This document shows positions 800 through 12,206 of a DNA stretch of 31,476 bases, one piece after another. The notes beneath the pieces were generated by a model. That model had not been told where the DNA came from and made no database searches. It saw nothing but the letters and a program-made list of their open reading frames with translations. The stretch's first letter is position 1; each line of letters opens with the position of its first letter. Made by a program: the position numbers and the translations under genes. The stretch comes from a virus, in IMG/VR virus record IMGVR_UViG_3300032220_000675, positions 1 to 31,476 of that record, one strand, 5' to 3'.

Positions 800-852
800 C
801 ACGTGGCGGTTATCCACAGGGGGTGTGTATAACTAATGTGTTTAAGGTCACA
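800..852 (+). promoter_or_regulatory. Composite upstream module 1 (CACGTG, two DnaA-like boxes, CRP-like site)
   Basis: In order: CACGTG (800-805), TTATCCACA (810-818), TGTGTATAA (824-832, the reverse of TTATACACA, also a DnaA-box match) and TGTGT-N6-TCACA (837-852). The same parts recur in the same order near 1879 and 6282, and in reduced form near 3233. It is followed by promoter elements at 884-923. The stretch 762-1064 holds no convincing gene. Confidence 0.6.
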
Positions 853-883
853 CCTTTATTTCCCCCATTTACGGCGTGTCGAT

Positions 884-923
884 TTGACTTTTTGACATTT
901 CTTTGCTATACTTCTAGTATAAC
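884..923 (+). promoter_or_regulatory. Tandem sigma-70-like promoters
   Basis: TTGACT (884-889) with TATACT (907-912), and TTGACA (892-897) with TAGTAT (915-920), both have 17-nt spacers. No gene starts soon after, so the transcript probably reads through the operator and repeat at 948-1001 into the gene at 1065. Confidence 0.55.
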
Positions 924-947
924 AATTAAATAAAGATAAATCAGGCA

Positions 948-1001
948 GTGAGCCTAGCAAATAAATGTGATGTAAATCACAGTGCGCCTAGCAAATAAAT
1001 G
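948..1001 (+). repeat. Direct repeat flanking a palindromic operator
   Basis: Two 20-bp copies (948-967 and 982-1001), differing at one base, share the core GCCTAGCAAATAAATG. Between and slightly overlapping them is TGTGA-TGTAAA-TCACA (966-981), a perfect match to the CRP consensus and to GlxR (TGTGA-N2-TA-N2-TCACA). Symmetric placement suggests a cooperative binding array. Confidence 0.6.
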
Positions 1002-1008
1002 CCCCGAT

Positions 1009-1037
1009 TTGTCAGACCCCCCTGTTATACTTATATT
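1009..1037 (+). promoter_or_regulatory. Promoter for the 1065 operon
   Basis: TTGTCA (1009-1014), a 17-nt spacer containing a C6 run, then TATATT (1032-1037). TATACT at 1026 may be an alternative -10. A leader with GAAAGG precedes the ATG at 1065. C-rich spacers recur in promoters near 3271, 7686 and 13253. Confidence 0.55.
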
Positions 1038-1064
1038 AACAAACAAACGAAAGGTAGTCACTAA

Positions 1065-1250
1065 ATGACTTACACTATAAAACTCGAAACCTATTCAGGT
1101 TCCGTAAAAAATATCCCCCTATCAACTAAAGGACAGGTTGCAGATTTTATCTCTAACTATCCTAATGCGTTACCTGTTGGCGTATCTGTTAAAGTATCTT
1201 GCGACATGCTAGGTATTCGTGGAACACTTAGAGGAAAGGCACTTATCTAA
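1065..1250 (+). CDS. Hypothetical phage protein (61 aa)
   Basis: A 61-residue protein predicted to be mostly beta strand. GAAAGG lies upstream of the ATG. First gene after the promoter at 1009-1037, and it ends in a TAATG overlap with the next gene. No family recognised. Confidence 0.65.
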   Translation: MTYTIKLETYSGSVKNIPLSTKGQVADFISNYPNALPVGVSVKVSCDMLGIRGTLRGKALI

Positions 1251-1405
1251 TGATAAACTCAGTACTCTCTATCCCTTGCGAAGAATGCCACGCAACAGGT
1301 TTAATCTTTTTTGGCGATGAAGATAATTTCGATGTAGAAACTTGCGTATGCGATTTCGGCATGGAACAAGACTTAAACTTATTTAACACACCCGAAGCAA
1401 ACTAA
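1250..1405 (+). CDS. Small zinc-finger-like protein (51 aa)
   Basis: A 51-residue acidic protein with C10-EE-C13-H-A-T-G and C32-V-C34. This resembles half of a DnaJ-type Cys-rich repeat (CxxCxGxG), so it may bind zinc. Translation is probably coupled to the gene before through TAATG. Function unknown. Confidence 0.6.
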   Translation: MINSVLSIPCEECHATGLIFFGDEDNFDVETCVCDFGMEQDLNLFNTPEAN

Positions 1406-1423
1406 AGAATAGGAAATAAAAAA

Positions 1424-1633
1424 ATGACAGTATCAATCGAACACAACCTAAAGTTTATCACAGAGGTAGACGAGACTCACCCAGTAGGAATGCAACTGCT
1501 TAGACTTTCAGAGTCAATGCAAATTGTAATGCTTGAAGGAATGCTAAAAGAGTTACTTGCTCCACGCATTCAGCCAGCCATAGATGAGTTAAATGCTAAT
1601 GGCTCTTATGCAATTCTAAAGGTGGCCAAATAA
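1424..1633 (+). CDS. Hypothetical phage protein (69 aa)
   Basis: A 69-residue, mainly helical protein without cysteines. A weak purine-rich site (AGGAAATAAAAAA) precedes the ATG. It overlaps the next gene by one base. No family recognised. Confidence 0.6.
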   Translation: MTVSIEHNLKFITEVDETHPVGMQLLRLSESMQIVMLEGMLKELLAPRIQPAIDELNANGSYAILKVAK

Positions 1634-1818
1634 TGATGACACGCAAAGACTATGTAGCAACCGCAGAAATCCTGCACGGATATAAAGATTTAATCGGTGA
1701 CCAATTAGTTTTTGAAGATTTGGTTGATGAGTTTTCTCTAATGTTTGAAAGCGATAACGAAAGATTTGACCATGTAAAGTTTTTCAATGCTTGCCATAAA
1801 GAAAATGCTTTTGCATAA
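1633..1818 (+). CDS. Conserved small actinophage protein (MTRKDYV family)
   Basis: A 61-residue protein that starts MMTRKDYVATAEIL and ends with a RFDHVKFFNACH segment. Many actinophages encode short proteins with this plan (MTRKDYV at the N-terminus, FD..KF..AC at the C-terminus). Their role is unknown. A repeated hairpin follows 20 nt after the stop. Confidence 0.7.
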   Translation: MMTRKDYVATAEILHGYKDLIGDQLVFEDLVDEFSLMFESDNERFDHVKFFNACHKENAFA

Positions 1819-1837
1819 ATAAAATAAAACAAAATCC

Positions 1838-1860
1838 TGAGCAAGATCTAAAACTGCTCA
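1838..1860 (+). repeat. Repeated hairpin R1
   Basis: TGAGCA / TGCTCA form a perfect 6-bp stem around an 11-nt loop, AGATCTAAAAC. It follows ATCC and sits after the stop of the gene ending at 1818. Member of a six-copy family (see 5056, 5655, 6242, 7461, 23557). There is no U-tract, so it is not a standard terminator. Confidence 0.65.
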
Positions 1861-1878
1861 ACACATCAACAAAAAATG

Positions 1879-1937
1879 CACGTGTGACTTATCCACAGGC
1901 TGTGTATAACTTTAAGTAGCATGTGATTTTTCTCACA
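1879..1937 (+). promoter_or_regulatory. Composite upstream module 2
   Basis: CACGTG (1879-1884), TTATCCACA (1889-1897), TGTGTATAA (1901-1909, reverse TTATACACA) and TGTGA-TTTTTC-TCACA (1922-1937). Same order and similar spacing as the module at 800-852. Confidence 0.6.
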
Positions 1938-2039
1938 CTCTCTGAGCGTCTCATTATTTAAGACTACTCGCTAGTAGGTTGATAATTTATGACTAATAGG
2001 CTAGACTTACATAGTAAGAAAAAAATAAATAAGCAAGAT

Positions 2040-2067
2040 TTGTCAGACCCATATGGTAGGATAAAGT
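2040..2067 (+). promoter_or_regulatory. Promoter for the 2096 operon
   Basis: TTGTCA (2040-2045) with TAAAGT (2062-2067), spacer 16. The start TTGTCAGACCC matches the promoter at 1009. GAAAGAGG (2081-2088) is the ribosome binding site for the ATG at 2096. Confidence 0.45.
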
Positions 2068-2095
2068 TAATAACAAAAAAGAAAGAGGTCGCCCA

Positions 2096-2302
2096 ATGGC
2101 TACTAAACTATACACAATACAGGATTTACTAATTGGTAAAAACTATCGCTCACAAAATCGTCACTTTGAAGGAGAAATTATTTCTGCCTCTCCTCGCCCT
2201 GCAATTTGGTATGGAGAAAATACCGAAGCCTATGTCATTGAAATCTATGACCGCACTTTGCGAAGTAAGTTTGCAACAGTAGCAGTAAAGGTTGGTGAGT
2301 AA
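2096..2302 (+). CDS. Hypothetical phage protein (68 aa)
   Basis: A 68-residue protein with alternating beta strands (YVIEIYDRTLR, FATVAVKV), possibly a small barrel. Good ribosome binding site GAAAGAGG. Its stop overlaps the next ATG. Unknown function. Confidence 0.65.
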   Translation: MATKLYTIQDLLIGKNYRSQNRHFEGEIISASPRPAIWYGENTEAYVIEIYDRTLRSKFATVAVKVGE

Positions 2303-2469
2303 TGATAAACACATACATTGACGAAACAGATTTTTATTTAATTAAAGATGAACAGAGATATTGTTGTGATGAGTCACAATTCAAGTATGTCTGCAAGGCT
2401 CATGGCGAAAGCATGGGTTGTTATTTCTGTGAGTTTGACTATTCTACTACATGCGAGGAGCAACACTAA
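2302..2469 (+). CDS. Cys-rich small protein (55 aa)
   Basis: A 55-residue protein with seven cysteines (C21, C22, C31, C40, C43, C51 and others near H34), including C40-YF-C43. Probably metal binding. TAATG overlaps tie it to the genes on both sides. Function unknown. Confidence 0.6.
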   Translation: MINTYIDETDFYLIKDEQRYCCDESQFKYVCKAHGESMGCYFCEFDYSTTCEEQH

Positions 2470-2690
2470 TGAATAATGAATATCTATATGCAGTAACAGT
2501 AGCCTATGATAGCGAACCAGTCCATTGGACAGGTCGTTACTCTGATGCACTAAGTGCAGTTAATGCTTTCAACGAAATTGTTGATTGGGGATTTGCTGAT
2601 GAATATTCAACAGTTAATTTATCTGAACCAAGTGGAAAGATGCACACCCGCACTTTCTATCGTGAAGGACGAAAGGTCGTAACAAAATAA
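2469..2690 (+). CDS. Hypothetical phage protein (73 aa)
   Basis: The chosen ATG at 2469 overlaps the upstream stop (TAATG) and has GAGGAG 9 nt before it. An in-frame ATG at 2451 lies before that binding site and is unlikely. The 73-residue product has a strand-helix-strand start (YLYAVTVAYD... YSDALSAVNAF), like small phage proteins of unknown role. Confidence 0.65.
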   Translation: MNNEYLYAVTVAYDSEPVHWTGRYSDALSAVNAFNEIVDWGFADEYSTVNLSEPSGKMHTRTFYREGRKVVTK

Positions 2691-2959
2691 TGGGAAGCGT
2701 AACCGCACTCGGTATTCAAGATACCGTACTTGATTTAGAAACACAATTAGCATATCACTTGCAGGGTAATCACTATCCTCCAGTACCGCTATCTATGGTG
2801 CAACCTTGCATAGATGCTATTGACGCATACTATGACGAGGACTACCGCAGAGAGATAGATTTGCCTCAAGGAGTATTGTGGCGTGGGCAGGTTACTGCAC
2901 CAGCAGATGCAATAATTGAGCAACACCATTTATCTTTTTGGCTACCAGAGGAGGACTAA
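2690..2959 (+). CDS. Conserved actinophage protein (89 aa)
   Basis: An 89-residue acidic protein. The C-terminal segment with LPQGVLWRG, TAPADAIIEQHHL is a pattern seen in many mycobacteriophage and Streptomyces phage small proteins of unknown function. The ATG overlaps the previous stop. Confidence 0.7.
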   Translation: MGSVTALGIQDTVLDLETQLAYHLQGNHYPPVPLSMVQPCIDAIDAYYDEDYRREIDLPQGVLWRGQVTAPADAIIEQHHLSFWLPEED

Positions 2960-3193
2960 ATGTCTGATACAATAAACAACATGGAACTTAGATTTGCTGA
3001 TAACTTAAAACCATCTCAACTTTTAGAAGGCGATCTAATTAAGGTTGATGATGAATATGTAACTATTGAAACCATTACAGAAAATGAAGATGGATTTAAT
3101 ATTTATACTAGAAATGATTTTAACGAAGAGGGTCACATTTATTTATTTGATGATGAAACTATTGAGTGGTATGTATTCTTTGAAGAAGACTAA
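2960..3193 (+). CDS. Hypothetical acidic phage protein (77 aa)
   Basis: A 77-residue, very acidic protein, predicted beta-rich (GDLIKVDDEYVTIETI), perhaps SH3-like. GAGGAGGAC upstream, within the end of the gene before, is a strong ribosome binding site. Last gene of this operon: an AT-rich inverted repeat follows. Confidence 0.65.
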   Translation: MSDTINNMELRFADNLKPSQLLEGDLIKVDDEYVTIETITENEDGFNIYTRNDFNEEGHIYLFDDETIEWYVFFEED

Positions 3194-3204
3194 TCACTAA
3201 AGTA

Positions 3205-3230
3205 TTTTTATGTGCTTCCCCGCATAAAAA
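3205..3230 (+). terminator. Candidate bidirectional terminator
   Basis: TTTTTATG (3205-3212) and CATAAAAA (3223-3230) form an 8-bp stem around TGCTTCCCCG. It sits 11 nt after a stop codon. The stem is A/T-rich, so it would be weak, but the geometry fits an operon end. Confidence 0.4.
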
Positions 3231-3232
3231 TG

Positions 3233-3300
3233 CACGTGGCGCCTGTGTGAGATTGATCACATTTAAGAATTTGACATTTATTCCCCCTGTATGCTAAGAT
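3233..3300 (+). promoter_or_regulatory. CRP-like operator and leaderless promoter
   Basis: CACGTG (3233-3238), TGTGA-GATTGA-TCACA (3246-3261), TTGACA (3271-3276) and TAAGAT (3295-3300), spacer 18. The ATG at 3306 is only 5 nt past the -10, so the transcript should begin at or next to the start codon. The operator ends 9 nt before the -35. Confidence 0.6.
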
Positions 3301-3305
3301 TAATT

Positions 3306-3452
3306 ATGAAGAAAAATCCAGAGGAATTACGCAGGCTTATGGAATTACGCCGTAGCAATGCAGCCTCTGCCGTACCCTCTAAGAAATCATACAACCGTAG
3401 AAAATGTCAGTCCGAACTGCTACAATTAAAAAACAACGAAAAAGGAGAATAG
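3306..3452 (+). CDS. Small basic protein (48 aa)
   Basis: A 48-residue, Arg/Lys-rich protein (LRRLMELRRS, KKSYNRRK), possibly nucleic-acid binding. It has no Shine-Dalgarno. Its ATG follows the -10 by 5 nt. The next gene's AAGGAG lies inside its 3' end. Confidence 0.6.
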   Translation: MKKNPEELRRLMELRRSNAASAVPSKKSYNRRKCQSELLQLKNNEKGE

Positions 3453-3457
3453 CCCCT

Positions 3458-3634
3458 ATGGGAAATATCGCAGATGAATTCTATGATGAATACTATGCAA
3501 CAACCTGCCCTGAATGTAAAGAAAATGCGGTAGACGCATATGAAGAAAAATGCACTCATTGTTTACTAGAAGAAATGTCAGCAACCTATAACGAAGACAT
3601 TGCTCTAGAAATGAGTCTTGGCCTTGACTACTAA
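3458..3634 (+). CDS. Zinc-ribbon protein (58 aa)
   Basis: C17-PE-C20 and C32-TH-C35 make a rubredoxin-type zinc ribbon. Start ATG 3458 is chosen because AAAGGAGAA lies 8 nt upstream. A longer in-frame start at 3404 would place that site inside the gene. The 3' end overlaps the following gene. Confidence 0.7.
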   Translation: MGNIADEFYDEYYATTCPECKENAVDAYEEKCTHCLLEEMSATYNEDIALEMSLGLDY

Positions 3635-4358
3635 TACATTTAAACTAAAACGCTCTAAAGATAGAAAGGTTGCTAATGCCGTCACACCTAATGGAAAACA
3701 AGCAAGTATCGCAAATACCTTTGGCCTCCCTGCTGGAAAGGCTTTCTCGTGTCCTGGTGCCACGAGTGTATGTGAATCCGTATGCTATGCAGGAAAACTC
3801 GAAAAGATCTTCCCAACCGTAAAAGTTAACCTGCTACACAATTGGGCCCTGCTAAAAGACGCAGACTATTTAACTATGCTTAATCTCATTGCTGAGATGA
3901 TTGCTGATTTCAAGGCAGACTGTATCAAGAAAGACGCTCCTATGCTATTCCGTATCCATTGGGACGGAGATTTCTTTAACGATACTTATACTACCGCATG
4001 GTCTGATGTAATCAAACTTAATCCTGATGTACAATTTTGGGTATACACTCGTGTGAAGGCTGCAGCACTAATCTTAAAAGACATTGATAATCTTAGTCTT
4101 TATTTTTCTGCTGATAGTGAGAATGTAAAAACTGCCGTTGATTTAAAAATTAACAGTGGTGTACGCATGGCATACCTTGCTAAGAATTTTGCAATTGGTA
4201 AGGCAGACATAAAAGAAATGATTGGTAAGCCTGCTGCTAAGTGTCCTGAGAATAATAAACAGATTCCACTTATCTCAACAAATGGAAGCGCTTGCGTTTC
4301 TTGCTCACTTTGTGTATACTCTAAGAGTGACATAATTTTTTCATCGAGTAAGAAATGA
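3618..4358 (+). CDS. GP88-like Cys-rich phage protein
   Basis: A protein of about 246 residues, TTG-started (TTG 3618, or TTG 3624 giving MTTNTFKLK). Visible features: a conserved N-terminal block (DRKVANAV, NGKQASIANTFGLPAG), then C45-PGATSV-C52-ESV-C56-YAGK, a central HWDGDFF motif, FWVYTRV, and C-terminal cysteines (KCPENN, ACVSCSLC). This matches my memory of the mycobacteriophage GP88 family, whose function is not established. The clustered cysteines suggest a metal or Fe-S centre and have been likened to radical-SAM proteins, which I cannot confirm. It overlaps the gene before by about 17 nt. Confidence 0.65.
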   Translation: MALTTNTFKLKRSKDRKVANAVTPNGKQASIANTFGLPAGKAFSCPGATSVCESVCYAGKLEKIFPTVKVNLLHNWALLKDADYLTMLNLIAEMIADFKADCIKKDAPMLFRIHWDGDFFNDTYTTAWSDVIKLNPDVQFWVYTRVKAAALILKDIDNLSLYFSADSENVKTAVDLKINSGVRMAYLAKNFAIGKADIKEMIGKPAAKCPENNKQIPLISTNGSACVSCSLCVYSKSDIIFSSSKK

Positions 4359-4364
4359 GATAAC

Positions 4365-4427
4365 ATGCGTAGTACTCAAGTTATACTTTTATTTTGGTTG
4401 TTGCTTCTTTTATTTTTCCACCAATAA
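4365..4427 (+). CDS. Single-span membrane micropeptide (20 aa)
   Basis: A 20-residue frame (MRSTQ then a run of L, F, W, V, I) that would form one transmembrane helix. It begins 6 nt after the upstream stop. Short and unverified, though similar peptides occur elsewhere in the window. Confidence 0.35.
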   Translation: MRSTQVILLFWLLLLLFFHQ

Positions 4428-4487
4428 AATAAAAGGGGCCACGTCGCCAAGATCGAGGTTTGTCAAGTTTATGATAGGCCTTTAAGA

Positions 4488-4560
4488 TGTGATTAAGGAC
4501 ACACCGCAAATCCCCCGCTGGATTGGTATTTATGACATTTTTCTGCTAGAATTATAGTAT
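4488..4560 (+). promoter_or_regulatory. CRP-like operator and promoter
   Basis: TGTGA-TTAAGG-ACACA (4488-4503, one mismatch in the right arm), then ATGACA (4532-4537) and TAGTAT (4555-4560), spacer 17. The gene starts at 4598 with an AGAAAGG binding site. Confidence 0.5.
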
Positions 4561-4597
4561 AAGCAATTAACCCCCACAACAGAAAGGCAAGACCCAA

Positions 4598-4768
4598 ATG
4601 ACACTACACGGATACACTTACCAAATTGGTGATTTATTCACAACAAGCAAGACAGGCGTTACAGGTCGTATCGCAGGATTTACACCAATGTCTAATAAGG
4701 TTACTAGAGTTAGCCTCATCTTGGCAAATGGCGCACAACGCCTTGCTATGGTCAAGACCTCTAAGTAA
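4598..4768 (+). CDS. Small beta-rich protein, tandem paralog A (56 aa)
   Basis: A 56-residue protein. It aligns with the next gene: YQIGDLFTTSKTGVTGRI here against YKVGDTFTTQKSKVTGVI there, with similar strands after it. Possibly a small SH3-like barrel. It has its own promoter (4532-4560). Function unknown. Confidence 0.7.
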   Translation: MTLHGYTYQIGDLFTTSKTGVTGRIAGFTPMSNKVTRVSLILANGAQRLAMVKTSK

Positions 4769-4829
4769 TCTCACAATGTGAGAAATGTTAGGTTTCGATT
4801 TGACATTTCTACAACTAAAATGTTATACT
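4769..4829 (+). promoter_or_regulatory. Palindrome and promoter of paralog B
   Basis: TCTCACA-A-TGTGAGA (4769-4783) is a perfect 7-bp inverted repeat right after the stop of the 4598 gene. Its half-sites are CACA/TGTG in everted order. TTGACA (4800-4805) and TATACT (4824-4829), spacer 18, follow. The palindrome may be an operator or a weak transcription end. Confidence 0.5.
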
Positions 4830-4874
4830 TAGGTATAACTAAATAACAACCCCTAAACAGAAAAGAGAAAAACA

Positions 4875-5039
4875 ATGTCAGTAGCAACAGCAACATACAA
4901 GGTCGGCGACACTTTCACAACACAGAAGTCAAAGGTAACTGGAGTTATTCAAGAAATTAACCCACTACCAAATGGTAATGTGCGAGTTAAGTTAGATGTA
5001 AATGGTTCAGCCCGTTACACAACTTGGACGGCTAAGTAA
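4875..5039 (+). CDS. Small beta-rich protein, tandem paralog B (54 aa)
   Basis: A 54-residue protein homologous to its upstream neighbour (GDTFTTQKSKVTG motif). It ends with an aromatic/Thr-rich strand (YTTWTAK). AAAAGAGAAA precedes the ATG. It has a separate promoter. A repeated hairpin follows the stop. Confidence 0.7.
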   Translation: MSVATATYKVGDTFTTQKSKVTGVIQEINPLPNGNVRVKLDVNGSARYTTWTAK

Positions 5040-5055
5040 TTTAATTACTAATTCC

Positions 5056-5078
5056 TGAGCAAGAATACAAACTGCTCA
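5056..5078 (+). repeat. Repeated hairpin R2
   Basis: TGAGCA / TGCTCA, perfect 6-bp stem with 11-nt loop AGAATACAAAC, 16 nt after the stop at 5039. It is followed by the leader of the 5121 gene. Confidence 0.65.
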
Positions 5079-5120
5079 ACACCCCCAACTAATACCCCAC
5101 AAAAGAAAAGAGATAAACAG

Positions 5121-5543
5121 ATGGCTAGAGCAAAAGCAATAAATGTAAAAATCCCAACAGTTCGAGTAATCGCAGGACTAGAGCAAGCACTTGCTACACT
5201 AGAAACAGACTACGCAACACAAAACGAAAAAGAAGCACAATACGAAATTGCTCGCAAAGCATGGCAGAAAGAAGTTATTGACTATGCCGTAGCAAACATC
5301 AGCAAAGCAGAAAACTTCCGCACTAACTATCGTCATTGGTCAAATAATCTTAACATTGACTTTGACTTAACAGTTACAGAAAAAGAAATGCCAACAGAGC
5401 CTGAGAAAGACTTTGAGACAATTCACCTCAGCACTTATCGTGAGTCAAAGAAAGAAATCTCAAACGCAATTCGTCTGCTAAAGATGACAGATGAGGAAAC
5501 AGTTAATACCTCAACCTACAACGCAATCGCACAGTACCTATAA
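5121..5543 (+). CDS. Conserved phage protein (140 aa)
   Basis: A 140-residue helical, Lys/Glu-rich protein, probably a coiled coil (residues 18-60). GAAAAGAGA precedes the ATG. It resembles early actinophage proteins of unknown function. No catalytic motif seen. No separate promoter is obvious, so it may be read through from the promoter at 4800. Confidence 0.7.
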   Translation: MARAKAINVKIPTVRVIAGLEQALATLETDYATQNEKEAQYEIARKAWQKEVIDYAVANISKAENFRTNYRHWSNNLNIDFDLTVTEKEMPTEPEKDFETIHLSTYRESKKEISNAIRLLKMTDEETVNTSTYNAIAQYL

Positions 5544-5654
5544 ATGAAATTGGGGGAGGCGTAAAAACCTCCCTCAACTTTCGCCAGGCTGATTAGGGCG
5601 ATAATAGAAATACTATAGAGCAAGGCTCCTGCAGGCCTAAAGAAGCAGACATCC

Positions 5655-5677
5655 TGAGCACGATCCAAAAAGGCTCA
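5655..5677 (+). repeat. Repeated hairpin R3
   Basis: TGAGC / GCTCA pair (the sixth pair is A-G) around the 11-nt loop CGATCCAAAAA. It lies in the gap between the 5121 and 5752 genes, 14 nt before a -35 element. Confidence 0.6.
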
Positions 5678-5690
5678 CCCTTAAGGGGAC

Positions 5691-5720
5691 TTGACAAATG
5701 TCAGTGGCGCCCTGTACAAT
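5691..5720 (+). promoter_or_regulatory. Promoter for the 5752 gene
   Basis: TTGACA (5691-5696) and TACAAT (5715-5720), spacer 18. It overlaps an apparent in-frame start at 5698, which rules that start out. GAAAGAGG then precedes the ATG at 5752. Confidence 0.6.
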
Positions 5721-5751
5721 TAAATTAAACCAACTACAGAAAGAGGCCCCC

Positions 5752-6180: not shown

Positions 6181-6241
6181 TAGGGGGCTACTAATACAAC
6201 TGGCCACCGTACAGCCAGTATAAATAAGTGGCGAAACATCC

Positions 6242-6264
6242 TGAACACGATGTAAAACTGTTCA
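6242..6264 (+). repeat. Repeated hairpin R4 (compensatory change)
   Basis: TGAACA / TGTTCA, perfect 6-bp stem with 11-nt loop CGATGTAAAAC. Relative to R1 and R2 both strands change together (G-C to A-T), which supports an RNA structure. Confidence 0.65.
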
Positions 6265-6281
6265 CTTTTTATTTTAATTTG

Positions 6282-6331
6282 CACGTGGGAGTTATCCACA
6301 GGTTTATCCACAGCCTGTGATTAAGATCACC
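6282..6331 (+). promoter_or_regulatory. Composite upstream module 3
   Basis: CACGTG (6282-6287), two direct TTATCCACA boxes (6292-6300 and 6304-6312) and TGTGA-TTAAGA-TCACC (6316-6331). Same order as the modules at 800 and 1879. Confidence 0.6.
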
Positions 6332-6372
6332 TTTAAGAAGTGTCCGAATTATCCCCTGTCTACCTATACGAT

Positions 6373-6401
6373 TTGACTTTGTCAGTCCTGTCTGCTAAAC
6401 T
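6373..6401 (+). promoter_or_regulatory. Promoter for the DUF932 gene
   Basis: TTGACT (6373-6378) and TAAACT (6396-6401), spacer 17, with GAAAAGAGAAA before the ATG at 6433. It lies inside the upstream extension of the reading frame, so the real start is 6433. Confidence 0.6.
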
Positions 6402-6432
6402 TAGTATAAACAACAACAGAAAAGAGAAACTC

Positions 6433-7449
6433 ATGGCACATGACCTAGAAACACAAAACGGCGTTGCATCATTTGCATCATTCCGTGAACCTGCTTGGCA
6501 TGGATTGGGTACTGTATTCACAGAAGAAAAAACTACATCAGAAATGTTGGCGCTTGCTAATCTTTCTAATTGGAATGTTCGTCTTGAAGATTTAACAGTA
6601 CCGACCCACTTATCATCAGATAAGAATTATCAATATGTATTGCGTACTAACCCTACAGATACAACACAGACCGACATTCTTGGTGTCGTTGGTGAGCGTT
6701 ACCATGTAATGCAGAATGAAGATTTATTCTCATTCGGTGACAACATTCTAGACGGCGGAGGTCGTTGGGAGACTGCTGGCTCAATTAAGGGTGGCCGTGT
6801 TGTGTTCGGTGCATTGGCACTAGAGCGTGAGACTGTCCTAGACCCTAGCGGTGTTGCCGATAAGGTAAAGACTTATTTACTTATCAACACATCACATGAT
6901 GGCTCAATCGCTATTCAAGCAAGCATCACACCTGTTCGTGTTGTGTGCGCTAACACTCTCAATCTTGCTCTTGGCTCAATCAAGAAAAAGAATGGCGTTA
7001 AGCAATCATTCAAGATTCGTCACACACAGACTGCAAGCGGTAAGGTTGCCGTTGCTCGTGAGACTCTTGGAATGGCTAACAAGTACATGGACGCATTTGA
7101 TATTATGGCTAAGGCTATGATTGAAAAAGAAGTCAATGCTAAGCAATTCAATGATATTGTATTGGCTGCATATGCAAAACCAGAAACAGATGCTAAGGGT
7201 TCGCTAAAAAAGTGGGAGAATAAAATTGATTCAATCAATGATATTTACACAGGCGAGTTCAATGGTATGATTGCTGGTAGCGCATGGGGTGCTTTCAATG
7301 CACTAACTGAGCGCCTTGACTGGTATCGTTCTGCTCGTGGTGGTTCTAACGAATCAATCCTTGCATCAGCATCAGGATTTGACCCTGCTATCAACGCAGA
7401 AAAGAATCGTTTGCTAAAAGTTGTACAGAATGTAATGCAACTCGCATAA
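6433..7449 (+). CDS. DUF932 / phage-plasmid-like protein
   Basis: A 338-residue protein matching the DUF932 (phage/plasmid-like TIGR03299) family. Recognisable blocks: FREPAWHGLGTVF at residue 16, GVVGERYHVMQNEDLFSFGDNIL near 83, GGRVVFGALAL, and SITPVRVVCANTLNLAL near 160, typical of the family core. The C-terminus (GSAWGAFNALTERLDWYRSARG) is also typical. Members occur in phages, plasmids and near CRISPR loci, and their molecular role is unknown. It has its own operator module and promoter upstream. The start is set by the promoter and AAAGAGAAA site. A repeated hairpin and tRNA-Asp follow. Confidence 0.9.
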   Translation: MAHDLETQNGVASFASFREPAWHGLGTVFTEEKTTSEMLALANLSNWNVRLEDLTVPTHLSSDKNYQYVLRTNPTDTTQTDILGVVGERYHVMQNEDLFSFGDNILDGGGRWETAGSIKGGRVVFGALALERETVLDPSGVADKVKTYLLINTSHDGSIAIQASITPVRVVCANTLNLALGSIKKKNGVKQSFKIRHTQTASGKVAVARETLGMANKYMDAFDIMAKAMIEKEVNAKQFNDIVLAAYAKPETDAKGSLKKWENKIDSINDIYTGEFNGMIAGSAWGAFNALTERLDWYRSARGGSNESILASASGFDPAINAEKNRLLKVVQNVMQLA

Positions 7450-7460
7450 CAAAAAAATCC

Positions 7461-7483
7461 TAAGCATGATTTAAAACTGCTTT
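7461..7483 (+). repeat. Repeated hairpin R5
   Basis: TAAGCA / TGCTTT, five pairs plus a terminal T-T mismatch, with the 11-nt loop TGATTTAAAAC. It lies between the DUF932 stop and tRNA-Asp. Confidence 0.55.
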
Positions 7484-7491
7484 CCTTAATT

Positions 7492-7565
7492 GGAGTGTTA
7501 GCATAGTTGGTTAATGCGCTACCCTGTCACGGTAGAGATCACGGGTTCAAGTCCCGTACACTTCG
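7492..7565 (+). tRNA. tRNA-Asp (GTC)
   Basis: Full cloverleaf: acceptor GGAGTGT/ACACTTC with one G-T pair, D-stem GCAT/ATGC, anticodon stem CTACC/GGTAG with loop CTGTCAC (anticodon GTC), T-arm ACGGG-TTCAAGT-CCCGT, discriminator G. CCA is not encoded. It probably reads through from the DUF932 transcript. Confidence 0.9.
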
Positions 7566-7627
7566 CAAAATCGCCACGTGTGAAAATTAGTACAAATCGG
7601 ACATAAAAATGTCAAATAAAATAAACT

Positions 7628-7714
7628 TTACGATAGTCAAACCTTTTCCCCAAAAATGTCAAACCATAAAATCTTTACGATAGAGTTGACATTTCCCCCA
7701 AACCATGCGATAAT
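7628..7714 (+). promoter_or_regulatory. TTACGA repeats and leaderless promoter
   Basis: TTACGA at 7628 and 7675, each followed after 11 nt by TTTCCCC (7645-7651 and 7692-7698). The second overlaps the promoter TTGACA (7686-7691)/GATAAT (7709-7714), spacer 17. The ATG at 7721 is 6 nt past the -10. The motif recurs near 10722, 10756, 11089 and 13240. Confidence 0.55.
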
Positions 7715-7720
7715 TAATAC

Positions 7721-7885
7721 ATGACCCAAACAATGAGAACGATTGATGAACTAGTCAATGAGATGTACATGGACAATGAGCCACATCTCGAATACATGGA
7801 GAATATGAACGGTGGGGATTGTGATTGTAACATCCACACTACCTTGAATACAATAGTCAAATACTGGTGGGATGAGGAGAACTGA
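7721..7885 (+). CDS. Hypothetical acidic protein (54 aa)
   Basis: A 54-residue, Met- and acid-rich protein with C34-D-C36 and H39. It has no Shine-Dalgarno, so the leaderless promoter sets the start. Its stop overlaps the next ATG (TGATG). Confidence 0.6.
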   Translation: MTQTMRTIDELVNEMYMDNEPHLEYMENMNGGDCDCNIHTTLNTIVKYWWDEEN

Positions 7886-8034
7886 TGTTAGGTTATGAAC
7901 TATCAGACTTAGATATGATGATTGCTAATGTAAACATTGCTTCTAAACAATTGGGCAATTCAGGTATTGCTAAAGGCCTAGAGGAAGTATCTAGTTTCTT
8001 ACAAGGCCTATGGGCAGAAGGGTACTTTGACTAA
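7885..8034 (+). CDS. Hypothetical helical protein (49 aa)
   Basis: A 49-residue protein, largely helical. It is coupled to both neighbours by one-base overlaps. No cysteines or known motifs. Confidence 0.6.
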   Translation: MLGYELSDLDMMIANVNIASKQLGNSGIAKGLEEVSSFLQGLWAEGYFD

Positions 8035-8165
8035 TGAATCCTGATGGTACAAGAGATGTTGTTTACTCCCCCGATAATTGGGGTATTGATGCTCCTGACT
8101 GGGCTACGCCTACCTTTGGTTCCTATAATGATTTCTTAGATGAGGATGATGACTATGTGGAGTAA
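8034..8165 (+). CDS. Hypothetical acidic protein (43 aa)
   Basis: A 43-residue, Asp-rich protein (DFLDEDDDYVE end). Starts in TAATG overlap and overlaps the next gene by 11 nt. Function unknown. Confidence 0.5.
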   Translation: MNPDGTRDVVYSPDNWGIDAPDWATPTFGSYNDFLDEDDDYVE

Positions 8166-8442
8166 GTATACATTTGTTTGTGACCCTGATGAGTGTGATG
8201 CTCTTCTTGAGTTTACCGCCAGGGATGGCTATGGATTCCCCAACGGATCTGTAGAGATGAAATGCCCATGTGGACGCTGGATGGCTTATATTAGCATTGA
8301 AGAGGTTTGGTCCCCCATCATTGATACTATAGAAATGCTTAATGATTTTAAGAAGCAAGCAGGCATAGCCATAGACTCCTTAGATGTGACGAAGGTCACA
8401 CCCCCAAAACTTGTAAAAATCAACTCAAACCCCTATAATTAA
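8155..8442 (+). CDS. Hypothetical protein with Cys motif (95 aa)
   Basis: A 95-residue protein (MWSKYTF start) with C9, C14 and C37-P-C39-G, a likely zinc-binding module. An in-frame ATG at 8140 is the alternative start. Its 3' part contains the operator and -35 of the next gene. Confidence 0.6.
   Translation: MWSKYTFVCDPDECDALLEFTARDGYGFPNGSVEMKCPCGRWMAYISIEEVWSPIIDTIEMLNDFKKQAGIAIDSLDVTKVTPPKLVKINSNPYN
8385..8439 (+). promoter_or_regulatory. CRP-like operator and leaderless promoter inside a gene
   Basis: TGTGA-CGAAGG-TCACA (8385-8400), TTGTAA (8411-8416) and TATAAT (8434-8439), spacer 17. The ATG at 8446 is 6 nt past the -10. The operator ends 10 nt before the -35, matching the arrangement at 3246-3300. 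Confidence 0.6.
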
Positions 8443-8445
8443 TAT

Positions 8446-8601
8446 ATGGACCTAAAAACATTCCGAGAATATATCCGATTGCATGCCATATCCCTTGAAC
8501 AGGATTTGGAAAACGAGGACGGTGCTGATAGCATTGTTCCTTATCTTGAAGGAGCCATTAATGTATCCCGCCACTATTTGGAGGTAACCAATGAGCGATA
8601 A
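8446..8601 (+). CDS. Hypothetical protein (51 aa)
   Basis: A 51-residue helical protein (FREYIRLHAISLEQDLEN). Leaderless start. Its end contains GGAGGTAACC, a strong ribosome binding site for the overlapping gene at 8591. Confidence 0.6.
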   Translation: MDLKTFREYIRLHAISLEQDLENEDGADSIVPYLEGAINVSRHYLEVTNER

Positions 8602-8878
8602 CACTACCCTTGACCCATATCTAATGAAACAAGTAGAAATGGGTATGGACGGAGCAGACATACTGCATGGTCACCTTAAAACTCTTATGTATGAGGCAGA
8701 GCAACAGTTAGACCTTTGTATTGAGGCAGAGGAATACTCAGAGGAAGCCATGGACTCTATGGCTCGTACAGAGGCTTCAGGCTATCTTGACGCACTGTCT
8801 GAGGTTTATGCCCTAACATATGCTATCGCTTTTGCCAAGGAAGAAGTAAAGAACCGTAAGGAGATTCTTGGTGAATAG
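8591..8878 (+). CDS. Hypothetical acidic helical protein (95 aa)
   Basis: A 95-residue acidic, helical protein with possible coiled-coil segments. GGAGG upstream supports the ATG at 8591. It overlaps both neighbours. No family recognised. Confidence 0.65.
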   Translation: MSDNTTLDPYLMKQVEMGMDGADILHGHLKTLMYEAEQQLDLCIEAEEYSEEAMDSMARTEASGYLDALSEVYALTYAIAFAKEEVKNRKEILGE

Positions 8879-9311
8879 CGAACGATTTATAGAAATGACT
8901 GAGGAAGAATGGTTTGAGACTTATAAGCCTGTTAAGAATCATCTTGAGACTACCTCCTCATTTGACGGACACATGTTTGAGACATATGGCTCAGAGGTAG
9001 AGTTTGTTAAATCTATCCCTGAAGACCGTATCTGGATGCTTGGTGACGGTGACGACGGTGGCATGTACATCTGGAACGGCTGGGGATTTGTAAATAGAAT
9101 AGGATACTTTGTCACTGAGGTACCCTGCCCACCTGACACGACTATTCAGGTCCAAGTTGGTATACCGTGGTATTACTGTGAATTCTGCGACTCAGAATGG
9201 GAAGACCCTGATAATCTTATTAGAGATGCCTTCCAAGAGCAGGATTTGGAAAAATGCCCTAACTGTGCTACCATTGAAGAAATGACCCTAGTAGGATTGG
9301 ATAAGAAATGA
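8871..9311 (+). CDS. Hypothetical protein with C-terminal zinc ribbon
   Basis: About 146 residues. GTG 8871 has AAGGAG at suitable distance. TTG 8868 or ATG 8895 are alternatives. The N-terminal half has a beta-rich segment (RIWMLGDGDDGGMYIWNGWGFVNRIGYFV is the region's core, residues about 43-72). Near residues 101-135 is CEFC ... CPNC, a zinc ribbon. Found as a type in actinophages without known role. Confidence 0.65.
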   Translation: MNSERFIEMTEEEWFETYKPVKNHLETTSSFDGHMFETYGSEVEFVKSIPEDRIWMLGDGDDGGMYIWNGWGFVNRIGYFVTEVPCPPDTTIQVQVGIPWYYCEFCDSEWEDPDNLIRDAFQEQDLEKCPNCATIEEMTLVGLDKK

Positions 9312-9646
9312 CAAAGTATACGATAGACGGACTTACCTTAGTAGGAAGTTTTGCTGTTGACTCAGGTCAAGCAATGGTGGGTGACCCCTGCTACCTTGAC
9401 CAATGGAAAACAAATGAGGGTGAGCCATGGGATATGGAAGGCAAGATAGGAGAATACTCTTATCAAGGCGCTAGTGCTACAACGATTAACTCTAACGCAG
9501 GGGAGTTAGGAATTGGTAGCGCAATTGTATTTAACACAGGCTATGGTGACGGCTACTATCCTGTTTATATAAAGACAAATCAAGACGGACGAGTTGTAAA
9601 GGTAGTAATTGACTTCGAAGGCGACCTAGATGAGGAGCAAGACTAA
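9308..9646 (+). CDS. Conserved phage protein (112 aa), DUF4241-like
   Basis: A 112-residue protein with the motifs VDSGQAMVGDPCYL near the start, YSYQGASATT in the middle, and FNTGYGDGYYPVY. These resemble a phage/bacterial family that includes DUF4241, though I cannot confirm it. Overlaps both neighbours by 1-4 nt. Function unknown. Confidence 0.7.
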   Translation: MTKYTIDGLTLVGSFAVDSGQAMVGDPCYLDQWKTNEGEPWDMEGKIGEYSYQGASATTINSNAGELGIGSAIVFNTGYGDGYYPVYIKTNQDGRVVKVVIDFEGDLDEEQD

Positions 9647-10011
9647 TGGGTGCACGGATCAACTATGTATTTAAAGATTCATTAACTAAGCCTTCAGTTG
9701 TACTTTATAGTCACTGGGGTGAGACTGAGTGGCAGCGGGACCTAGCAATGGCCCTGCAGCATTCAAAGCCTAGGTGGATAGACGCCTCCTATGGTACCCG
9801 TATGATGATTAGTTATCTTACCCAAGACTCAGTCTTAAATGAGACAGGGTTTGGTATCTATGCTATTAATAACGGTGACTATGAATTTTGGGACACCACT
9901 GTAATCATCGACTTCAATACTAAGACTATTAATGAACTGGGCTCAGACATCCATGTTAATTGGGACCTATTCATAGCAGCCTATCGACCAGTTTTAATGG
10001 AGCAAATCTAG
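9646..10011 (+). CDS. Conserved phage protein (121 aa)
   Basis: A 121-residue protein (start MGARINYVFKD, with VLYSHWG, RMMISYLTQ, WDTTVIIDF, VNWDLFIAAY). The type recurs in Streptomyces and Mycobacterium phages next to the 9308-type gene. Function unknown. It is the last gene before a terminator. Confidence 0.7.
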   Translation: MGARINYVFKDSLTKPSVVLYSHWGETEWQRDLAMALQHSKPRWIDASYGTRMMISYLTQDSVLNETGFGIYAINNGDYEFWDTTVIIDFNTKTINELGSDIHVNWDLFIAAYRPVLMEQI

Positions 10012-10050
10012 GGAGTGGGTCCTCTAGATTATAGGGTGGAAGGGGCAGGC

Positions 10051-10077
10051 GTGGGGCTTGCTCTTTCCCCCACTTTT
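10051..10077 (+). terminator. Rho-independent terminator
   Basis: GTGGGG (10051-10056) and CCCCAC (10067-10072) form a 6-bp GC stem around CTTGCTCTTT, followed by TTTTT. It ends the operon finishing at 10011. Confidence 0.7.
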
Positions 10078-10086
10078 TGGTACAAT
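10058..10086 (+). promoter_or_regulatory. Promoter overlapping the terminator
   Basis: TTGCTC (10058-10063) and TACAAT (10081-10086), spacer 17. Here a short leader with AAGGGAGA precedes the ATG at 10104. Confidence 0.5.
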
Positions 10087-10103
10087 AGATACAAGGGAGA
10101 ACT

Positions 10104-10310
10104 ATGCGTATAAGCAGACGGGTCACAGAGGAGGAGAAGGTAGCCATGAAGTTAGGCAACATGGTATCTGACCTCCGAGTTGATTTGGAATTAGTCGGGG
10201 AATACCTAGCAAAGTCTCAGCCCTATGTCGTGTATAATAGATTACAGACAATAGCAGAGTCAGCCAAAGAAACTAAGGAAGGTACAAATTATGCCATTAA
10301 CGGATTTTGA
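10104..10310 (+). CDS. Hypothetical helical protein (68 aa)
   Basis: A 68-residue protein with a basic start (MRISRRVTEEEKVAMKLG) and helical content throughout, possibly nucleic-acid binding. AAGGGAG upstream. It overlaps the next gene by 20 nt, which carries the next AAGGAAGG site. Confidence 0.65.
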   Translation: MRISRRVTEEEKVAMKLGNMVSDLRVDLELVGEYLAKSQPYVVYNRLQTIAESAKETKEGTNYAINGF

Positions 10311-10551
10311 TAGCAGGGCTTTAATCCTAGGACAACTATGGGTTAATTTTAAACAAGATGACGAATGGACAGACTTCTTTGCTTATAGCGATTTAGGTTT
10401 GCCACTTGCATTTTCTTTTGCTGAAGGAATAATTAACCACACACCATCACTTGAACAATACATAAACGAGACATGGGATTTGTTTATTGAAGGTTTGGGA
10501 ATTGAAGATGAAGGTTTTGCAAGACTTGAAGATATTTTCACAGAGGAGTAA
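10291..10551 (+). CDS. Conserved actinophage protein (86 aa)
   Basis: An 86-residue acidic protein. DFDSRALILGQLWVNF, DLGLPLAFSFAEGI and YINETWDLFIEGLGI are the hallmarks of a small protein found in many actinophages. Function unknown. AAGGAAGG lies just upstream. Confidence 0.75.
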   Translation: MPLTDFDSRALILGQLWVNFKQDDEWTDFFAYSDLGLPLAFSFAEGIINHTPSLEQYINETWDLFIEGLGIEDEGFARLEDIFTEE

Positions 10552-10553
10552 AG

Positions 10554-10658
10554 ATGAAGAATATAAATGTGCCACAAGAATGGCCAAGATCTAAAAAGAT
10601 TATTGTTATTGTAACAACACTGTCTGTTATAGCAGTGTTGCTATTGCTTGCCGTATAA
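10554..10658 (+). CDS. Small membrane protein (34 aa)
   Basis: A 34-residue protein with a basic N-terminus and a hydrophobic span of about 18 residues (IIVIVTTLSVIAVLLLLAV), so one transmembrane helix. GAGGAG upstream supports the ATG. Function unknown. Confidence 0.55.
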   Translation: MKNINVPQEWPRSKKIIVIVTTLSVIAVLLLLAV

Positions 10659-10669
10659 ACCCGCAAGGG

Positions 10670-10796
10670 CACGTGCATTCATATTGAATAACAAACCATC
10701 AAACCTTATAGCCAAAAGACATTACGAACCTCCAAATCTTTCCCCCTCCAGAACATTACGATCCAAACCTTTGTTTCCCCAAACTAGGTGTATACT
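10670..10796 (+). promoter_or_regulatory. Non-coding stretch: CACGTG, TTACGA elements, promoter
   Basis: CACGTG (10670-10675), CAAACC repeats, TTACGA at 10722 and 10756, each followed by TTTCCCC 11-12 nt later, then TATACT (10791-10796). No good -35. The ATG at 10803 follows the -10 by 6 nt. Confidence 0.5.
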
Positions 10797-10802
10797 TTAT
10801 AT

Positions 10803-11030
10803 ATGAGTCCAAGACATTTTGCAAACCTTTATAAGCAAACCTCCCATCGCCATGATAGCCCAAGTGATGGTGATATATTTAATAGAGACTTTGGTGCTCT
10901 ATGTGGTATGTTGTATTCTATTGTTACTCTTAAGGCTTTCTTTCCTAAGTCCCCCGCCCCAGCGATGACTGATAGTCCTATCACTGACGGCATCGGCGGG
11001 GATCAAGAAGAACAAAACAAACCCCTATAG
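10803..11030 (+). CDS. Hypothetical protein (75 aa)
   Basis: A 75-residue protein (MSPRHFANLYKQ). An upstream in-frame GTG at 10788 overlaps the -10, so the leaderless ATG 10803 is preferred. N-terminal half is basic. No family recognised. Confidence 0.55.
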   Translation: MSPRHFANLYKQTSHRHDSPSDGDIFNRDFGALCGMLYSIVTLKAFFPKSPAPAMTDSPITDGIGGDQEEQNKPL

Positions 11031-11143
11031 AATAACAAACCTTTTCTCCTGGTTTCTATATATTTTTAAATACTTTCTAAATAAAACATTACGATTATCG
11101 AGAATTTTCCCTGGTTTCTGGGGATTTTTTTATAGGGTTTTAA

Positions 11144-11214
11144 GGTTTGACAAACCATTATATGTGTGGTATCATCCGCTTCGAGGATATAAGGTTTGAA
11201 GGTTTGAGGTTTGG
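11144..11214 (+). promoter_or_regulatory. Palindrome, orphan promoter and GGTTTGA repeats
   Basis: GGTTTG-A-CAAACC (11144-11156) overlaps TTGACA (11147-11152), which pairs with TATCAT (11170-11175), spacer 17. Direct GGTTTG(A/G) copies begin at 11193, 11201 and 11208. The stretch 11031-11362 holds no gene except these sites, a TTACGA element at 11089 and DnaA boxes at 11322 and 11334. Any transcript would run into the small gene at 11363. Confidence 0.5.
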
Positions 11215-11321
11215 GGCCCCCAAGACATTACGAACGCATCGTTAAAAGCGCCCCATTCTCCACTATCCTCCACTTCACTCCACTTCTAGGGTGTCTAATA
11301 AGATTATCAGTAAGATTAATC

Positions 11322-11356
11322 TGTGGATAAACCTGTGGATAACTATTTGATATACT
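11322..11356 (+). promoter_or_regulatory. Two DnaA-like boxes and leaderless promoter
   Basis: TGTGGATAA at 11322-11330 and 11334-11342 (reverse TTATCCACA). The second ends 8 nt before TATACT (11351-11356), so it lies in the spacer. The ATG at 11363 is 6 nt after the -10. Confidence 0.55.
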
Positions 11357-11362
11357 TGGTAT

Positions 11363-11482
11363 ATGACAGAACAAACCGAAGAAAAGATCCCAGGATACAA
11401 GCAAATCCCTCCTGATTGGTGTGATGATTGCACTGTTCAAGACAGTGTTTGTACAATATGTGGCTGTAGCCATAACTGCTAA
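11363..11482 (+). CDS. Cys-rich mini-protein (39 aa)
   Basis: A 39-residue protein with C20, C23, C30, C33, C35 and C39. Likely zinc-binding. Leaderless start. Function unknown. Confidence 0.6.
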   Translation: MTEQTEEKIPGYKQIPPDWCDDCTVQDSVCTICGCSHNC

Positions 11483-11485
11483 ACC

Positions 11486-11512
11486 TGTGGATAACTTCAT
11501 CTATGCTATACT
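11486..11512 (+). promoter_or_regulatory. DnaA-like box and tRNA-Arg promoter
   Basis: TGTGGATAA (11486-11494), then TATGCT (11503-11508) or TATACT (11507-11512). tRNA-Arg begins at 11523. Confidence 0.5.
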
Positions 11513-11522
11513 GAATAAATAG

Positions 11523-11593
11523 TTCAGGTTCGTATAATGGTAGTACTCCAGATTCCGAATCTGAGAACGCAGGTCCGAATCCTGCACCTGAAG
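11523..11593 (+). tRNA. tRNA-Arg (CCG)
   Basis: Acceptor TTCAGGT/ACCTGAA is perfect. D-stem GTAT/GTAC. Anticodon stem CCAGA/TCTGA has a C-A mismatch at its base. The loop TTCCGAA gives anticodon CCG. T-arm GCAGG-TCCGAAT-CCTGC (T-loop starts TC, not TT). Discriminator G. CCA not encoded. Confidence 0.85.
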
Positions 11594-11610
11594 CCTATCT
11601 GTGGATAACT

Positions 11611-12159
11611 TTATGAAATAAAACCTAAACTGTCTCTAAACCTATATGCTTCATCAAGCATTGGGTTATTTGGAATTGCAAGGTGAGAGTAATCTGACAA
11701 ATTATCTGGATTTAAAAACCTTACAAACATCATCCTGACATACTCTCCTTCTTTAAAATGCTTTAAAACCCTCCAATGAATTTCTTTATTTGCATTAAAG
11801 ATTAAGGCACAGTTATCCTCTAACTTATAAGTTTCTAGGTTTAACCCTATATCCCAAACGGTATTAGACTCTAATTGTATACTAACAATCAGGTCATTAG
11901 TGTCTCCATCAAAATGAGGATTTAGTTCAGGGTTTCCATATAAAAGGCTATATTCTACAGACATGGCAGAGCCCATCTCTAAAGGTTTGCCAATCTCCTT
12001 TAGTTTCTCAATAGTCTCTGGGAGTAGTAGGCTTTCTAAATCACGAACCTGAATCCTGCCTAACTCATTATCAATAATTGTTGGGCTTTCTGATATTATT
12101 TTCTTTATATGATCTATTTCTTTTTTTGAAAAAATATTATTTATTCTTGTTATTGACAT
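11611..12159 (-). CDS. 2OG-Fe(II) oxygenase-like protein
   Basis: A 182-residue protein with the double-stranded beta-helix pattern of Fe(II)/2-oxoglutarate oxygenases. H82-F-D84 and distal H128 (IHWRV) would bind iron. R142 (GEYVRMMF) would bind 2-oxoglutarate. It hydroxylates an unknown substrate. This copy is the most diverged of the seven here. The -10 (TACAAT, 12166-12171 reverse) is 6 nt before the ATG, so leaderless. It shares a divergent promoter region and a DnaA-like box with the gene at 12213. Confidence 0.75.
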   Translation of the reverse strand: MSITRINNIFSKKEIDHIKKIISESPTIIDNELGRIQVRDLESLLLPETIEKLKEIGKPLEMGSAMSVEYSLLYGNPELNPHFDGDTNDLIVSIQLESNTVWDIGLNLETYKLEDNCALIFNANKEIHWRVLKHFKEGEYVRMMFVRFLNPDNLSDYSHLAIPNNPMLDEAYRFRDSLGFIS

Positions 12160-12165
12160 ACAAAT

Positions 12166-12206
12166 ATTGTACCATAATTGACCTGTGGATAACTCTATGA
12201 TATGAT
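12166..12206. promoter_or_regulatory. Divergent leaderless promoters around a DnaA-like box
   Basis: Minus: TACAAT (12166-12171). Plus: TTGACC (12178-12183), spacer 17, TATGAT (12201-12206). The box TGTGGATAA (12184-12192) lies right after the plus -35, inside its spacer. Both ATGs are 6 nt from their -10. Confidence 0.6.

Follow-up and report, generated by a model that had tools for sequence, protein, structure and literature searches.

The virus record IMGVR_UViG_3300032220_000675, of which the whole stretch of 31,476 nucleotides was analysed (the window), is a 31 kb fragment of a freshwater actinophage of ~110-117 kb that encodes a WhiB-type regulator. The window contains nine exact copies of the motif TTATCCACA, and these sites are probably real, conserved and functional binding sites (boxes) for the DnaA protein of the host. 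On the most likely reading they fall into three kinds of host DnaA box: boxes within an origin-like block (11259-11342), boxes of early promoters, and boxes that lie over promoters. That host DnaA would bind the TTATCCACA sites is predicted with high confidence, and that the block may be a replication origin and that the boxes may regulate early genes are each held with moderate confidence. The complete reading, in which host DnaA would bind the sites, start replication at the block and control both early promoters and accessory genes, is in our estimation somewhat more probable than its negation.

The original prediction had named nine perfect sites, at 810, 1889, 6292 and 6304 on the plus strand and at 11322, 11334, 11486, 11600 and 12184 on the minus strand, together with near copies at 824, 1901 and 14986. 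All of these are present; the near copies at 824 and 1901 are TTATACACA on the minus strand. Nine exact matches compare with a mean of 0.37 in 100 dinucleotide shuffles of the window (maximum 2), and when one mismatch is allowed there are 26 sites for 12.5 expected. It had also been suggested that a motif equally frequent in coding sequence would refute the proposal, and the proposal passes this check. Among 45 dereplicated relatives, TTATCCACA occurs 247 times for 14 expected and is nine times denser outside open reading frames (ORFs) than inside them (0.857/kb against 0.099/kb), with the reversed motif at 0.007-0.009/kb. In 80 relative loci, 414 sites stand against 10 for the reversed motif. 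An ORF mask (at least 50 aa) scores four of the nine window boxes as coding; the site-overlapping ORFs that were inspected are alternative-start or antisense frames, without support from a family search, and no box of the nine lies inside a convincing gene. That the motif arose by chance or belongs to coding sequence was rejected, given the shuffles and its concentration in non-coding DNA. The relatives come from a scan with the DUF932 protein of the window, which gave 352 IMG/VR records, many on contigs of 100-118 kb; in 13 longer contigs, the conserved block and the early region together account for most TTATCCACA sites.

WhiB is regarded as an actinophage marker (PMC10202952), and the host is therefore likely to be an actinobacterium. 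The host-side sample, drawn from the class to which a Streptomyces-like genome belongs, consisted of 30 actinobacterial genomes (loci L290-L319) of 1.2-1.8 Mb, mostly with a GC fraction of 0.40-0.49 at the dnaA locus, which we infer to be probably Nanopelagicales; many of them have dnaA at the start of the first contig. TTATCCACA boxes surround dnaA in nearly all of these genomes, as 12-bp box pairs upstream of the gene and as 10-11 bp arrays behind it, and the phage boxes equal these dnaA/oriC boxes both in their letters and in their 10-12 bp spacing. Most of the dnaA-dnaN regions hold a box, ~13 nt, then GGTTACTACTACTAC and an AT-rich stretch; box-N13-GGTTACTACTACTAC-CTATATATA reads clearly as a canonical DnaA-trio origin element, and a box-spacer-TTACTACTACTAC trio element of canonical form occurs in most of the probable host genomes. 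A further motif, TGTCCGTTTT, stands upstream of boxes in many of the probable Nanopelagicales loci and is also enriched in the phage early region.

Alternatively, the boxes might bind a phage-encoded regulator that recognises TTATCCACA, in the manner of the mycobacteriophage stoperators, an explanation that we consider quite improbable. These phages do have other private repeated elements (CGACACGCC, TGTCAGACCC and TGTCCG). However, TTATCCACA agrees in every letter with the DnaA box of the probable host and has the same spacing, and stoperators keep one orientation to transcription, whereas the orientation of the phage boxes varies among relatives. A phage-encoded DnaA or CRP was also considered and set aside: neither was found in six phage genomes. 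Each of 12 probable host genomes examined encodes a CRP-family protein and none of the six phage genomes does; the host protein has the recognition helix RETVNKALADFA in the four that were read.

The origin-like block of the window is made up as follows.

11259 to 11284, plus strand: three direct repeats of TCCACT (at 11259, 11269 and 11279) with a 10-bp period, from the sequence.
11285 to 11321, no strand: AT-rich stretch with the invariant ATCAGTAA at 11306-11313, from block alignment and stability.
11296 to 11319, minus strand: DnaA-trio-like array of eight middle-T triplets (TTA ATC TTA CTG ATA ATC TTA TTA), beginning 2 nt after box 11322.
11322 to 11330, minus strand: trio-proximal DnaA box of a tandem pair, exact match.
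11334 to 11342, minus strand: second DnaA box of the pair, at 12-bp spacing, exact match.

This order of three TCCACT repeats (10 bp), AT-rich stretch with ATCAGTAA and two tandem boxes recurs in the relatives. Of 81 loci, 58 have such an origin-like block, and the majority of the remainder are short contigs or stop ahead of it. The repeats are kept in most of the 46 unique block sequences (they are degenerate in L039, L043 and L061), and the tandem boxes are 11, 12 or 21 bp apart, often with a third box 33-34 bp further on. The AT-rich stretch ranks with the ~12% of 40-bp stretches that are least stable in the window, which is itself AT-rich, and adjoins a very stable flank. Past the boxes on their own strand, after 2-6 nt, comes an uninterrupted series of triplets that each have T in the middle; this T is kept in the unique blocks while its neighbours vary. 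The run of such triplets, eight in the window, is of four to eight (mean 6.4) in 43 unique blocks, which share ancestry and are thus not 43 independent observations, and which were found with a pattern that included part of the trio stretch and so fixed four triplets. At 257 other boxes of the same loci the mean run is 1.95 (maximum 5), and in shuffles of the block it is 2.5. The only conserved RNA that Rfam found at the block was the tRNA described below.

The published DnaA-trio pattern consists of consecutive middle-T triplets with the consensus 3'-GAT-5' (CTA on the box strand), of which at least three lie within 16 nt of a box (PMC8287927). By its sequence, the block resembles a bacterial basal-unwinding origin: it shares with the basal unwinding system (BUS) known from bacterial oriC, for example that of Bacillus subtilis (PMC8287927), tandem boxes and same-strand triplets (at least three within 16 nt), and the AT-rich stretch beside them may correspond to that of the BUS. 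Unlike the BUS, it lies in a phage, away from dnaA/dnaN, and has degenerate triplets without CTA and three added 10-bp TCCACT repeats. Short direct repeats, an AT-rich region and DnaA boxes stand together, as they do in the block, in P1 oriR and other iteron/DnaA plasmid-type origins; unlike those origins, the block has repeats of 10 bp, and only three of them, and no Rep initiator was identified beside it. That the block is a copy of the host oriC was rejected, the phage trio array being different from the host TTACTACTACTAC. The original prediction had placed an origin near 11.3 kb; a conserved origin-like block does lie there by sequence, while the GC-skew check, described below, gives no support.

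The closest precedent for such a block, and a real rival reading of it, is the injection stop signal of phage T5, which is described as containing repeats, inverted repeats and DnaA boxes (PMC13250531). The early region would then be a long terminal repeat that is injected first, at the edge of which boxes and repeats hold the DNA through a host protein, and there would be no origin. A blastn search with the block against phage records gave a match in the pre-early non-coding region of a Salmonella phage of the T5 type (UTK0009), which has a 12-bp box pair, and phages of this type stand out among the weak matches. The likeness extends to the AT-rich neighbour, the position in non-coding early DNA and a phage size of ~110 kb (PMC13250531), and the boxes and repeats of our block lie in non-coding early-region DNA as in the T5-type stop region. 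In Samisti12 and other Streptomyces relatives the DUF932 gene is found at two places, which fits a long terminal repeat. On the other hand, the T5-type hosts belong to an unrelated phylum, and the T5-type example is without a long trio run: it reaches only four triplets in the Salmonella block, as compared with up to eight in the freshwater blocks. We consider the injection-stop explanation unlikely on balance.

The 12-bp-spaced box pair in the non-coding pre-early DNA of T5-type phages is one of several points that weigh against a DnaA-dependent origin and DnaA-controlled early region. The common ancestry of the 43 blocks, noted above, is another. The triplets are TTA, CTG, ATA, ATC and ATT, and none is CTA, unlike both the consensus and the probable host oriC. 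In three long relatives the GC skew follows gene direction, with a cumulative minimum well away from the block; it tracks the coding strand and was discarded as origin evidence. It should be noted that a change of skew is a usual sign of a chromosomal origin and stands outside the published definition of the BUS. That host DnaA would load a phage DnaB is an assumption, and the assignment of the phage to its probable host depends on WhiB, habitat and GC content. Finally, TTATCCACA is not enriched in the first 30 kb of Samisti12, a phage that also carries the DUF932 gene; an equivalent Streptomyces DnaA box was sought there and is likewise not enriched.

The second group of boxes belongs to early promoters. 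The boxes at 810, 1889 and 6292/6304 share one layout, of CACGTG, DnaA box or boxes, CRP-type palindrome and promoter, and the following features were recognised in this region.

800 to 805, no strand: CACGTG just upstream of a DnaA box, an arrangement repeated at 1879 and 6282, from the sequence.
810 to 818, plus strand: DnaA box of an early promoter, with an inverted near copy at 824-832, exact match.
837 to 852, no strand: CRP-type site TGTGTTTAAGGTCACA, one mismatch, from the sequence.
873 to 881, minus strand: family-wide element CGACACGCC next to the -35, from enrichment in relatives.
884 to 912, plus strand: early promoter TTGACT-17-TATACT, from the sequence.
966 to 981, no strand: CRP-type site TGTGATGTAAATCACA upstream of the promoter near 1009, without DnaA box, from the sequence.
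1889 to 1897, plus strand: DnaA box, with an inverted near copy at 1901-1909, exact match.
1922 to 1937, no strand: CRP-type site TGTGATTTTTCTCACA, from the sequence.
3246 to 3261, no strand: CRP-type site without DnaA box, upstream of the promoter 3271-3300, from the sequence.
6292 to 6300, plus strand: DnaA box upstream of the DUF932 gene, exact match.
6304 to 6312, plus strand: second DnaA box, at 12-bp direct spacing from the 6292 box, exact match.
6316 to 6331, no strand: CRP-type site TGTGATTAAGATCACC, one mismatch, from the sequence.
6373 to 6401, plus strand: early promoter TTGACT-17-TAAACT of the DUF932 gene, from the sequence.
8385 to 8400, no strand: CRP-type site TGTGACGAAGGTCACA, without DnaA box, from the sequence.

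The palindrome TGTGA-N6-TCACA occurs 211 times in the relatives for 1.2 expected, whereas spacers of 5, 7 or 8 occur only 0-1 times, and in three long genomes nearly all CRP-type sites are in the early region. The site of the 6292 module is centred ~85 bp upstream of the expected start of transcription, a predicted position compatible with class I activation. The element CGACACGCC, often just upstream of the -35, is found 124 times for 0.3 expected. CACGTG was rejected as a family-wide element (64 observed, 73 expected, not enriched); it still recurs beside the window boxes. The suggestion that host DnaA may control early genes gains from the identity of the boxes with the probable host box and from their place in composite early promoters; the original prediction had missed the CRP-type site, which is the more enriched.

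The closest regulatory precedent is that of the CtrA-controlled phages of Alphaproteobacteria ('lytic deferment'), in which sites for a host cell-cycle regulator are likewise concentrated in promoters of one genome region (PMC9437464). Unlike those phages, the present family has sites for DnaA and CRP rather than CtrA; the DnaA sites of the phages in that study showed no positional asymmetry (PMC9437464). Two side observations concern the same promoters. Early promoters share TGTCAGACCCCCCTGnTATACT (for example in L035, L064 and L088, and at 1009-1037 of the window), of which the conserved TGTCAGACCC part is strongly enriched. A hairpin-like TCCTGAGCA...AAACTGCTC element (103 observed, 5.7 expected; 1835, 5053 and 5652 in the window) often stands just before early promoter modules and is perhaps a terminator.

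The third group comprises the boxes over promoters, at 11334, 11486 and 12184; they are listed here together with an inserted cassette of 266 bp, the box at 11600 and a near copy further on.

11334 to 11342, minus strand: the second box of the block, also 8 nt upstream of the extended -10 TGATATACT serving a 39-aa ORF at 11363, from the sequence.
11351 to 11356, plus strand: -10 TATACT, 8 nt from the box, with the ATG at 11363 6 nt on (leaderless-type), from the sequence.
11363 to 11482, plus strand: 39-aa ORF, part of the 266-bp cassette absent from L009-type relatives, from locus comparison.
11486 to 11494, minus strand: DnaA box, with the -10 TATACT (11507-11512) of tRNA-Arg 12 nt downstream, exact match.
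11523 to 11595, plus strand: tRNA-Arg (CCG) in the inserted cassette, from tRNA call and Rfam.
11600 to 11608, minus strand: DnaA box, right-hand duplicate from the cassette insertion, from exact match and comparison with L009.
12178 to 12206, plus strand: promoter TTGACC-17-TATGAT with box 12184-12192 (minus strand) in its spacer and the ATG at 12213; the same module occurs in several relatives.
14986 to 14994, minus strand: near copy TTATCCACG, with the -10 TATACT (15007-15012) of a gene that starts at 15019 lying 12 nt downstream, from the sequence.

Two of these boxes, 11334 and 12184, had been described as lying inside the spacer next to the -10. This needs refining: at both, as at 11486, the box is just upstream of an extended -10, replacing the -35 and/or the spacer, and at 12184 it lies within the spacer. 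The boxes at 11334 and 12184 end exactly 8 nt upstream of the -10, a spacing seen in 15 of 28 listed family cases, and that at 11486 ends 12 nt upstream. At such boxed promoters the ATG often follows 6-7 nt after the -10, as in leaderless transcripts. Repression by DnaA is the likelier effect here, because a protein bound at these positions would overlap RNA polymerase. Between two box copies, the window has 266 bp more than L009 (the 39-aa ORF and tRNA-Arg), and the 584 bp from box 11600 to box 12184 in the window equal the distance from the second box of the pair to the next box in L009 (15431-14847). As this distance is identical in the cassette-free relative, the boxes at 11486 and 11600 appear to have come with the cassette. 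It was also observed that in relatives the conserved block gives way to variable genes at a DnaA box, and that what lies behind the boxes differs by cassette.

Such variation fits another explanation of the block, as a conserved promoter or regulatory region at a hot spot of cassette insertion, whose boxes are only promoter parts; a degenerate promoter-like TTGACATTACG stretch precedes the block in some relatives. Against this, the trio-like array and the AT-rich stretch are the most conserved part of the block and face away from the cassette promoters; we give the explanation little credence.

Under the reading that we prefer, host DnaA would bind the tandem boxes of the block 11259-11342, polymerise along the trio-like array, which lies on the AT-rich side, and open the DNA, after which phage DnaB helicase, DnaG primase and Pol III alpha, as encoded by relatives, would take over. 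Genes for RecA, Pol III alpha, a DnaG-type primase and a DnaB-type helicase were found in a relative; since these replisome genes are present and six genomes are without DnaA, a start that depends on host DnaA followed by a phage replisome is plausible. The boxes at 810, 1889 and 6292/6304 would form, with the CRP-type site, the upstream control region of early promoters, and early expression would then follow the growth state of the host through DnaA activity and the signal read by host CRP. At the leaderless-type promoters whose -35 or spacer is covered by a box (11334, 11486, 12184), DnaA would probably act as a repressor of the accessory genes that they serve. The boldest form of the proposal is a common family of freshwater actinophages with a miniature bacterial-type oriC and its own DnaA-trio array, using host DnaA, a phage replisome and DnaA/CRP-wired early promoters, in which the replication state of a slow-growing host, and its nutrient state, would set the pace of infection. 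We put this forward tentatively, as somewhat less than an even chance.

It is very unlikely, in our view, that the boxes mainly soak up host DnaA and thereby stop replication of the host chromosome during infection. The 5-13 boxes per long contig, multiplied by the phage copy number, could compete with oriC, yet titration alone leaves unexplained both the trio-like array and the precise placement of boxes with respect to promoters and CRP-type sites.

The most abundant bacteria of fresh water have phages that are largely uncultured. As likely inputs by which such a phage could judge the state of its host, two global regulators of the host, DnaA and CRP, can be read from the sequence, and boxes in both an origin-like block and early promoters suggest that it times replication and expression with the growth machinery of the host. 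The element of ~90 bp is a candidate replication origin open to testing. DnaA boxes in T5-type phages were already known; a trio block combined with DnaA/CRP promoters was not found described in actinophages in the open-access literature. The present family offers an independent case beside the unexplained boxes of T5, and whether large phages use host DnaA becomes approachable by a simple plasmid or binding test.

The genes of the window include those for DUF932 (6340-7446), GP88 (3618-4358) and the WhiB-type regulator (28801-29082), and further encode HSP20, AhpC/TSA, SNase, a JmjC/cupin protein and five tRNAs. By DUF932, the nearest named phages are Streptomyces phages such as Samisti12, at less than 60% identity. 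AhpC was tried as a pointer to the host and is uninformative, its best matches being mainly Burkholderiales and one actinobacterial metagenome-assembled genome (KLAP143). The part of the window from 15 to 31 kb is an accessory region with many 2-oxoglutarate oxygenase-like and cupin genes, a peroxiredoxin, an AhpD-like protein, HSP20, SNase and WhiB. In the loci L179-L181 and L184, a pair of TGTGGATAA lies between a promoter and the start of an nrdR-like gene (MRCPYCGY...), which suggests possible control of nrdR by DnaA.

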